Origin: Rhodothermales bacterium
GTDB lineage: Bacteria; Bacteroidota; Rhodothermia; Rhodothermales; VXPQ01
Assembly: GCA_951812335.1 (NCBI GenBank)
Contig: OX638293.1
Location: forward strand, 1,096,731-1,160,730
DNA length: 64,000 nt
Direction: 5' to 3'
In this document: in pieces, positions 23,273 to 25,970 of the stretch
Position numbering within the stretch: position 1 is the stretch's first letter
Layout: the number at the start of each line of letters is the position of its first letter
Position numbers and translations under genes: made by a program
The notes under the pieces: model-generated
Seen by the model: only the letters and a program-made list of their open reading frames with translations
Database searches by the model: none
What the model was told of the DNA's origin: nothing

Positions 23273-23899
23273 ATGTCCGCTTTTTCCGCTTCGCCGGTTA
23301 CGCTGTTTCTGCTTGTCGTCATCTTGCTGACGAGCGGTTATACGCTATTCTTTGATCGCTCCCTTATGGATCGCCTGGCGTTCAGGCCGTATCTGGTGCT
23401 GCGCCATCGGCAGTACGCTCGGCTTATTACGGCAGGGTTCGTGCATGTGAGCGGGGCGCATCTGCTGTTCAATACGATTACGCTGTACTTCTTCGGCCGA
23501 CCGATGGAGTATGTGTTGGGCCCGGGTTCTTTTCTGGTGCTGTACTTCGGATCCGAACTGGCGGCGCACGGGCTTTCGCTGGCGCTGCACAGGCGTTCCG
23601 TCACGTACGCAGCGGTAGGGGCTTCCGGCGCGATCAGCGGCGTTCTGTTCGGCTACTGTCTGTTTGCGCCGCTCCAGCCCATCTCCATTTTCTTTGTACC
23701 GATAGGCATTCCCGCAGCGCTCTTTGCTGTAGGGTATGTCGTCGTCTCGATGTATGCGATGCGGCGTTCGCATGGCGGCGCAGGAGGCGGCATTGCGCAC
23801 GAGGCGCATCTCGGCGGCGCTCTGGGTGGGTTGATACTCACGATTTTGCTGGAGCCGCGGGCGGTGGAAGTATTTCTGCAGCAGTTAGGGATACTCTGA
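23273..23899 (+). CDS. Rhomboid family intramembrane serine protease
   Basis: A 208-residue membrane protein of the rhomboid family, which cleaves within or near the membrane. The catalytic pair is visible as Ser118 in GASGAISG and His179 in AHEAHLGGALGG, with the supporting HLLFN motif (His63, Asn67). About six membrane segments fit. It is probably co-transcribed with purQ. The last codons (GIL and TGA) lie inside copy B of the dispersed repeat: GGG ATA CTC TGA is the repeat end itself, so insertion may have trimmed the original C-terminus by a few residues. Confidence 0.93.
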   Translation: MSAFSASPVTLFLLVVILLTSGYTLFFDRSLMDRLAFRPYLVLRHRQYARLITAGFVHVSGAHLLFNTITLYFFGRPMEYVLGPGSFLVLYFGSELAAHGLSLALHRRSVTYAAVGASGAISGVLFGYCLFAPLQPISIFFVPIGIPAALFAVGYVVVSMYAMRRSHGGAGGGIAHEAHLGGALGGLILTILLEPRAVEVFLQQLGIL

Positions 23900-24143
23900 T
23901 TAAATCCACTTTGATCAGCGCTTCACGCTCGGGCGTAAAAGATATTGTATTTGCATCGTTGAAATCAGCGGGAAACGCTGCGGATTCGGAACGTCGCGGG
24001 CGTGAAGCGCCCTTCGGGAGACAGAGAGGGGCACGCTGGCCGCGTCATTCCTCATTATGTGGGGCCTGCCACATTGCTTCGTCATTCCTTGCCAGCGCAC
24101 CCCTTTCAGCCTCTGAACTTTGCGGATTTAATCAGAGTATCCC
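23888..24143 (-). repeat. Dispersed structured element, copy B (inverted)
   Basis: Bounded by GGGATACTCTGATTAA and TTTAATCAGAGTATCCC and inverted relative to copy A. Stem II here is GCGCTTCACGC/GCGTGAAGCGC, an 11-bp perfect match. The inner hairpin is TGTGG/CCACA. TA flanks each side outside the GGG/CCC ends. It supplies the stop codon of the rhomboid gene. Confidence 0.9.
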
Positions 24144-24510
24144 TAGGAATGATCGGGGGGTAGGGATCGCTCCGGCACGCCGATCCGTCGTCCGGCCTGA
24201 TGTTTATGCAACGTAAACGTGCGGCGCACTGCCTGCATATTCGCAGTCGTTTCACGGATCGTTCTCTGAATATATCCGACTCCATTTTTTACCTTGCGAC
24301 TTGGGTACTTCGAATTACATCCGTTATTTTTGAGGCCCTATAGAGGGGTATTCTTCCGGTATTTCAAAAAATATCCGTTATTGTTTGCTTTATTCATTGC
24401 TATGTCTTACCTTAATTATACCTCATGCGCTGGAGACCTCATCCGGCCCGATTATTTCCTCCTGTTAACCGGGCTAAGGGGTATCAGTCGCGTTTTAGTG
24501 GGCACCGGGG

Positions 24511-24545
24511 GCCCGGCCTGTGCGTCAGGCCGGGCTTTTCGTTTT
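24511..24545 (+). terminator. Strong intrinsic terminator, possibly of a small RNA
   Basis: GCCCGGCCT (24511-24519) pairs perfectly with AGGCCGGGC (24527-24535), followed by TTTTCGTTTT. Upstream, from about 24435, is a second hairpin (CCCG...CGGG) whose loop carries TTTCCTCCTG, an anti-Shine-Dalgarno-like sequence. No protein gene precedes the terminator, so it probably ends a short RNA starting in the AT-rich stretch near 24400. I could not identify that promoter. Confidence 0.7.
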
Positions 24546-24701
24546 CAGGAGAATCAGGTACTGACTACAGAGGGAAGACGTACGCAGTTGGGGAAACCGC
24601 CTTGCGCAACGCATGTTTGTTCGCGGCAGCCTTTATCCACGTCTTTTTTCAAGCGGCGCACACTTTGTTAATAAATTGTGAAATAAAATTTTCACAGGGT
24701 C

Positions 24702-24730
24702 TTGACGTAGCCGAGAAGGGCGCTTATAAT
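24702..24730 (+). promoter_or_regulatory. Near-consensus promoter of the structured RNA
   Basis: TTGACG (24702-24707) and TATAAT (24725-24730) are separated by 17 bp. Predicted transcription starts near 24737, one base before the first UUCG hairpin. Confidence 0.75.
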
Positions 24731-24736
24731 GAATTC

Positions 24737-25282
24737 AGTGCCTTCGGGCACCGTTCCTTGAAGCGACTGAGTACTCTGGCTGCATGAGGCGCCCGCGCAT
24801 CCGTTCCCTCCACTTCGGTGAAGGGTGTGCATAGCTTGATGAAGCGGTTGGCAAAACCGGTTTTCCGGAGCGCAAGCACTCGGTGAAGCGACGGCAGAAA
24901 TGTTTGCGTGGAGCGTGTAAGCGCGGTGAAAGAAACCGGGGGAAGCTGGTTGTGGAGAGTGTGTGGATACAGGAAGCACGGGTAACCGGAAGGCCTGTGG
25001 CGCTTGAACCGTCTGCCCATGCGGTTCAGCTGTCCAGCAACCGGGAAACCGGTAATTGGGCATGCGTCACCATGTCGGCGTCGACACTGGCTTCGGTCAG
25101 CGTGCGGCGACGCGGGAGTCAGGCCTCCCGAATCCCGGTTTCGGAATATCGCTTCGGCGATGCGTCGGAATCGCGGGAGGCCAGTTGCGGATAGGAATAC
25201 CAGTGAACATGTATGTCCGTGGGTTTTTCTCACATCCAGGCAGCGGAAGCGCCGGTTGTTTCAACAACCGGCGTTTTTGTTT
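24737..25282 (+). ncRNA. Candidate 545-nt structured non-coding RNA
   Basis: The stretch is bounded by a strong promoter and a perfect intrinsic terminator. It contains four hairpins closed by TTCG tetraloops: 24738-24751 (GTGCC/GGCAC), 24806-24825 (CCCT-CAC/GTG-AGGG), 25087-25100 (CTGGC/GTCAG) and 25148-25161 (ATCGC/GCGAT). It also has a GAAA tetraloop hairpin at 25040-25053, a TGAACCG/CGGTTCA stem (25005-25011 with 25022-25028), and a 9-bp helix GGCCTCCCG/CGGGAGGCC (25122-25130 with 25174-25182) enclosing the last TTCG hairpin. The motif CGGTGAAG recurs. It lacks the signature sequences of RNase P RNA, tmRNA and SRP RNA that I know. A 103-codon frame inside (24883-25194) has no recognisable domain. 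Function is unknown. Confidence 0.65.
25250..25282 (+). terminator. Intrinsic terminator of the structured RNA
   Basis: CGCCGGTTGTT (25250-25260) and AACAACCGGCG (25263-25273) form a perfect 11-bp stem followed by TTTTTGTTT. Confidence 0.85.
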
Positions 25283-25602: not shown

Positions 25603-25808
25603 GATGCACGCTATTACAGAAAGCACGAAGCACAAACTGTCGTTGCTTCAACTCGCCGAGGAGCTCGGCAACGTATCGAAGGCGTTCCGGATCATGGGCT
25701 ACCGGCGCGACACGTTCTACGAGATGCGCTGAGCCTACCGTGCAGGAGGCGTTGCAGCCCTCGCAGAGAAGAAACGCGGTTCGAGGAGTCCGCATCCGAA
25801 CCAGGTGA
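25603..25808 (+). pseudogene. IS481-type transposase, N-terminal fragment
   Basis: Translation from ATG gives a helix-turn-helix segment, KLSLLQLAEELGNVSKAFRI then MGYRRDTFYEMR, characteristic of the N-terminus of IS481-family transposases. A TGA stop interrupts it after 42 codons, the frame continues recognisably (AYRAGGVAALAEKKRG), and homology ends near HPNQVTP at about 25808. The integrase catalytic domain is absent, so this is a dead remnant. It abuts another gene fragment in the opposite orientation. Confidence 0.7.
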
Positions 25809-25970
25809 CCCCACGCCACAGGTTGCGGCGCGATCACCAGGGCGGACTACCTCGAAGGCGTTGGAATCGATCTCGAAAACCAGTTCCCGCAGCGCTTGCG
25901 CAATGGGACGCAAGGGCTCTTCCGTGATCCGGAGCAAGTCGTCGAACGTTCCGATTCTGGCCTTGGACAT
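25809..25970 (-). pseudogene. DUF1801-type protein, N-terminal fragment
   Basis: From ATG at 25970, preceded by a strong Shine-Dalgarno (AAGGAGATAG), the frame reads MSKARIGTFDDLLRITEEPL and AFEVVRPGDRAATCGVG, matching the start of DUF1801 family proteins of about 115 residues. Recognisable sequence stops after 54 residues, at the junction with the IS481 fragment, so the C-terminal half is lost. The junction looks like an insertion-associated deletion. Confidence 0.65.

Follow-up and report, generated by a model that had tools for sequence, protein, structure and literature searches.

A small RNA and a large structured RNA of Rhodothermales that appear to form an RNA pair not described before

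A stretch of 64,000 nucleotides from a Rhodothermales bacterium (contig OX638293.1; hereafter the window) carries a large structured RNA, L, and a small RNA, S, encoded upstream of it. Together they appear to be an RNA pair that had not been described, the small member of which can prise open the large one. Comparative sequence analysis supports both RNA genes, their co-occurrence, the S–L pairing, closing helices of L that compete with it, an array of DnaA boxes and the phasing of a repeat pair; the promoters and terminators of S and L are predictions, and no transcript has been seen. The original prediction dealt with L and had missed the upstream partner and the pairing in trans, as well as the phased operators and the DnaA boxes.

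The large RNA

L occupies positions 24736–25278 of the window (+ strand; ~543 nt) and has its own predicted promoter and terminator, whereby the latter place homologues at ~540 to ~1,075 nt. The promoter assigned at the outset, TTGACG-17-TATAAT (24702–24730, +), held up well: 11 of its 12 bases agree with the consensus, it is the sole sigma-70-type match within 23–27 kb, and its -35 and -10 elements are kept in relatives. A hairpin, GUGCC-UUCG-GGCAC (24738–24751, +), does begin at the predicted transcription start as claimed, and the GAAA-capped hairpin was recovered as well, with a stem of 5 bp. Other structural claims required adjustment. Four UUCG hairpins had been counted; three have stems of at least 4 bp, exceeding chance (first-order Markov null, mean 0.11, with three never reached in 5000 simulations), but the fourth has only 3 bp. 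The number in L is matched by only 1 of 117 window tiles. Likewise, the intrinsic terminator (25250–25278, +; stem CGCCGGUUGU / ACAACCGGCG at 25250–25273, followed by T5) is present, but the perfect 11 bp ascribed to it would need a 2-nt loop, and 10 bp with the loop UUCA are realistic. The 9-bp helix GGCCUCCCG / CGGGAGGCC also exists, but it closes a hairpin of the 3′ domain (P3, 25122–25182, +) and not the whole molecule. The predicted minimum free energy of L is -239.9 kcal/mol (z = -3.2), a value as low being found in none of 100 dinucleotide shuffles.

A BLASTN comparison, which had been suggested as a check, yielded homologues across Rhodothermales. Among 60 relatives, each of the five further members of the genus has a long homologue, and across the order 18 of 32 genera were matched, mostly in the strongly conserved first ~65 nt of L. 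Weak matches to the 3′ domain in two genomes, G017 and G021, were taken as chance, the L of G017 lying elsewhere. A covariance model of the L 5′ domain (R1, threshold E ≤ 0.001) identified L in 56 of 114 Rhodothermales genomes and 11 of 15 families, as a single copy each; carriers include many Rhodothermales MAGs and the culturable Roseithermus sacchariphilus, in whose complete genome (CP030158.1) the locus lies near 193.4 kb, with predicted lengths of roughly 830 nt for L and ~90 nt for S. With the same model, L was detected in 0 of 131 other genomes of the class, and nowhere outside Rhodothermales among 395 sampled genomes of the phylum.

Compensatory changes were found at 77 of 204 pairs predicted by RNAalifold from eight homologues of one family, and the gap lengths in this set are not multiples of three. 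The presence of overlapping open frames, the longest of 169 aa, could be read as a sign that L, or its complement, encodes protein. However, none of the L frames tested matched Pfam, the homologue gaps do not respect codons, and it is the RNA pairing that is conserved, so that coding can practically be discounted; the original view that no convincing protein is present stands. Its assignment to a structured non-coding RNA of no known class is supported by the compensatory pairs and by Rfam 15, which at the gathering cut-off gave 0 matches for the window and 14 relatives (OLE, ROOL, GOLLD, 6S, RNase P and tmRNA included). Sub-threshold Rfam matches fell mostly on the L terminator hairpin. RNase P RNA and tmRNA were ruled out as identities of L, since the genome's copies of both lie elsewhere, and a mobile-element origin was rejected for want of a match in the plasmid, phage and viral collections searched. 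A literature search limited to open-access papers found nothing on the L RNA. We regard it as nearly certain that L is a conserved structured RNA, its transcription being predicted, and its class is undescribed as far as the searched libraries and the open-access literature show.

OLE, ROOL and GOLLD are large ornate bacterial RNAs, the cited structures of which are homo-oligomers (PMC12286853). L resembles them as a ~0.5–1 kb bacterial non-coding RNA with extensive conserved secondary structure, its own transcription unit and a function that is unknown or poorly known. It differs in that Rfam gives it no match to any of them, in that a search of phage, plasmid and viral collections gave no match, and in that its partner is a different RNA. 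As a separate observation, the L of L009 and relatives (family f5) contains, at L nt ~330–345, a hairpin with covarying stems and an invariant loop UCCCGG, within which the self-complementary CCGG could permit L–L kissing.

The small RNA and its pairing with L

S (24421–24539, +) is 119 nt long here and ~86–120 nt elsewhere. It is encoded on the same strand as L and ~315 nt upstream of it, between a rhomboid gene and the L promoter, and is laid out from 5′ to 3′ as CCUCAUGC, a variable hairpin, CUCAGUCGC, AUGGGCA and an intrinsic terminator (24511–24535 plus a T run, +). A putative -10/-7-like promoter element, TACCTTAA (24409–24416, +; family consensus TA(T/C)CTTTG), is conserved just 5′ of CCTCATGC; it is a consensus reading and untested. 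A covariance model of S (R2) matched upstream of L in 53 of 53 L loci with upstream sequence, although in a few diverged families a lax threshold was applied, on the short locus only. The S-to-L gap measures 98–473 nt; exceptions are G002 and G005, with an insertion of ~2.1 kb between the two RNAs that in G002 comprises an ATPase and a second ORF. Both RNAs nevertheless retain their own control regions there, and S and L are thus separate transcription units. In L150 (3040–4880), two genes are inserted between S and L, one for an AAA-type ATPase of 405 aa and the other an ORF of 208 aa; together these two genes have the look of an accessory, possibly defence-type, module.

Each of the three motifs of L that are best conserved has a complementary segment in S. 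S2, CCUCAUGC (24421–24428, +), is predicted to pair with M2, GCAUGAGG (24782–24789, +); S1, AUCAGUCGC (24483–24491, +), with M1, GCGACUGAG (24763–24771, +), which can alternatively pair with L's own 3′ part; and S3, GUGGGCA (24498–24504, +), with M3 (UGCCCAU), an apical 10-nt hairpin loop, UCUGCCCAUG (25012–25021, +). When the segments were concatenated into one alignment with 33 distinct rows, 90.7% of cells were paired, vs 22–41% in slid controls. Double-sided changes were seen at 9 pairs in 22 cells, a number reached in 0 of 500 shuffles, and each of the three helices contains clear cases. In helix 2, L GCAUGAGG with S CCUCAUGC becomes GCAUGAAG with CUUCAUGC in family f14, and ACAUGAGG with CCUCAUGU in two f2 genomes. 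The M3 helix changes from GCCCAU/AUGGGC to GCUCAU/AUGAGC in f9 and to GUCCAU/AUGGAC in f14, and a U-A pair of M1 is G-C in L020. S3 and M3 are both lost in families f10 and f13. Covarying intermolecular pairs are the criterion for a trans-acting sRNA and its target, which S–L meets; S3 lies opposite a hairpin loop, which satisfies that for loop pairing between two RNAs, here on sequence evidence only. Pairing of M2 with M3 inside L had been the initial idea, and was dropped for pairing of both with S.

The pairing segments were anchored partly by hand, and a few rows by eye. M3 was found independently of S in most genomes, as an apical 9–10-nt hairpin loop, while some required a relaxed search, and in f14 the search used the expected letters. 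Terminal S–L pairs are often broken, and some changes in L019/L084 and L016 are uncompensated. When S was swapped among genomes, pairing dropped significantly for helix 1 only (6/20000), because helices 2 and 3, taken singly, are nearly invariant. Unconstrained co-folding of whole S with whole L placed S on L nt ~17–54 in 8 of 8 genomes. The energy gain was moderate, the S of other families usually bound equally well, and shuffled S approached or surpassed real S in L001 and L020.

The complementarity could, in principle, be a mere relic of an inverted duplication without functional pairing, since S1 and S2 correspond to the reverse complement of a single L stretch. Still, S3 matches a separate hairpin loop of L hundreds of nt off, 9 pairs show compensatory change, and the loss of S3 in f10 and f13 is accompanied by that of M3, observations that make a relic very improbable. 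On this comparative basis, it appears highly likely that S and L are a pairing couple.

Closing helices that compete with S

The entire L is predicted to be closed by two helices that join its ends. UCGCGUC-AGGAA and AGAGAC are common to the 3′ ends of L; P1 forms between UUCCUUGACGCGA near the 5′ end and UCGCGUC-AGGAA, and P2 between GUCUCU and AGAGAC. In the window, P1 consists of UUCCU/AGGAA plus GCGACU/AGUUGC, with its 3′ strand (CAGUUGC ... AGGAA) at 25182–25197 (+). Over 20 rows, which were hand-anchored and from which one bulged base was omitted in L016, 91.9% of cells were paired, with double-sided changes at 6 pairs in 12 cells (0 of 500 shuffles). M1 overlaps inner P1, and P2 abuts or overlaps M1; consequently, full S1–M1 pairing and full P1/P2 cannot coexist. 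As judged from these alignments, L can be either closed on itself or invaded by S, but never both in full, and from this mutual exclusion the following switch model derives.

In free L, P1 and P2 would join the 5′ and 3′ parts, with M3 exposed in a hairpin loop of 10 nt and M2 mostly in another loop. S may then dock on M2 via its 5′ end, CCUCAUGC, and on M3 via AUGGGCA, followed by strand exchange into M1 (GCGACUGAG). This would displace inner P1 and P2 and alter the shape of L, so that S switches, or loads, the large RNA. The order of these steps, which of the states is active and any downstream target are inferred. Our confidence that S is a dedicated trans-acting partner that remodels a large, autonomous structured L in this manner is evenly balanced.

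A fixed arrangement is the first alternative. S and L might form a stable two-subunit particle, a scaffold or RNP in which S is a constant structural subunit as in a split RNA. The three conserved contacts, one of them a loop contact, would suit such an assembly, as would the fact that the two RNAs always occur together with one copy each per genome. However, P1/P2 covary independently and M1 must pair within L too, so that no one fixed structure could contain all of the helices simultaneously, and the control regions of S and L are separate and differently built. A stable particle is for these reasons rather unlikely.

Alternatively, the pairing might serve only to remove one of the RNAs, S being an ordinary regulator and L its decoy, or the reverse. 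The complementarity of ~25–30 bp speaks for this reading, and R1 found one M1/M2 site per genome, which leaves L as the only strong S partner detected. Several hundred nt of conserved structure with many compensatory changes would be needless in a sponge, as would covarying P1/P2, and we consider this explanation improbable. In trans-acting sRNA and sponge systems, a conserved seed-like 5′ end of a small RNA pairs with a second non-coding RNA. S and L share the small RNA, the seed-like 5′ end and the non-coding partner with such systems, but L is large and structured, the genes form a conserved two-gene cassette, and there are three covarying contacts and a competing closing helix. The competition that the switch model invokes has a counterpart in the U4/U6 snRNAs, where intermolecular helices compete with intramolecular helices of one partner; S/L is, however, bacterial, without splicing context and without sequence relation to these.

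Control elements, distribution and meaning

The control regions of the two genes are of different kinds. A conserved array upstream of the L promoter includes, in the window, the DnaA-box-like sites TTATCCACG (24633–24641) and TGTTAATAA (24666–24674). Over 54 such upstream regions (6.0 kb), 24 exact TTATNCACA boxes were found vs ~0.1 expected, and 91 within one mismatch vs 2.5 expected, the expectation being derived from the window; 50 of the 54 regions have at least one box within one mismatch. A cluster of TTATNCACA at the promoter is one of the criteria for a DnaA-regulated promoter, and the array satisfies this one. Transcription of L is thus probably tied to DnaA, and hence to replication or the cell cycle, although DnaA as the binder is inferred. 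The box array would, in the model, link L synthesis to DnaA. The boxes raised the idea that the locus is the chromosomal origin, which was rejected for this genome, as the GC/TA skew switches near 0.55 Mb and the locus lies at 1.12 Mb. For a fixed locus–origin distance in four complete genomes, a square-wave skew fit lacked the necessary resolution, and one of the four seems to be rearranged. The genome that contains the window has two distinct genes encoding a DnaA C-terminal domain, at G000:C1 416480 and 611127.

Upstream of S, a direct repeat pair with the consensus CCGTTATTG occurs in nearly all L-positive genomes, here as a distal operator, CCGTTATTT (24321–24329, +), and a proximal operator, CCGTTATTG (24375–24383, +), ~46 bp upstream of the S start. 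The exact pair was present in 31 of 33 L-positive vs 0 of 6 L-negative genomes tested. The copies are spaced by 52–55, 62–65, 72–76 or 84–85 bp, a period of ~10–10.5 bp that corresponds to whole helical turns (R = 0.78 at 10.5 bp for family-collapsed spacings, p ~4e-8; 0/20000 under a uniform null). The phased spacing and the near-confinement of the pair to this locus suggest that one factor binds both sites on the same face of the DNA. S would accordingly be governed by an unidentified factor at two in-phase sites. No known regulator was matched to CCGTTATTG, a literature text search returning unrelated papers only. Four further sites with the pair were found beyond the locus (G027:C131, G041:C46, G023:C49 and G001:C2), and these might reveal the regulon of the binding factor.

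In ColE1, the ~100-nt RNA I pairs with the ~550-nt structured RNA II via loop contacts and alters its folding, in a replication-linked system. A small RNA, a large structured RNA and a loop contact recur in S/L, as do DnaA boxes at the L locus. Here, however, S comes from a gene of its own, upstream of L and on the same strand, and is not antisense to L at one locus, it pairs at three split sites, and the locus is neither a GC-skew origin nor on a plasmid. An unprecedented bacterial two-RNA machine, in which S docks on two displayed loops and opens the 5′/3′ closing helices of L while L synthesis is timed by DnaA and so coupled to the replication cycle, is conceivable but on balance doubtful.

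At the rhomboid loci read in families f3, f4, f11 and f15, and in genera g14 and g28 of f14, a different gene comes next after the rhomboid gene, and neither S nor L nor the repeats are present; the cassette behaves as a unit. In the window, the rhomboid–S interval contains an inverted repeat (23886–24145; 33-nt arms, 85% complementary, 194 nt between them), which looks like a small MITE-like insertion, given its absence from the corresponding place in L003. Downstream of L, at 25604–25970, short frames resemble remnants of transposase or related genes.

To our knowledge, new classes of large structured bacterial RNA are rare, and most come without a partner that hints at their role. For S and L, the comparative data supply the partner, the exact contact sites, the competing helices and control elements of both genes, which renders the function of L directly testable, and lineages in which this gene neighbourhood is without the cassette are natural knock-outs. 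If the DnaA link is true, the pair would add an RNA component to the control of replication or the cell cycle in a phylum that has received little study.
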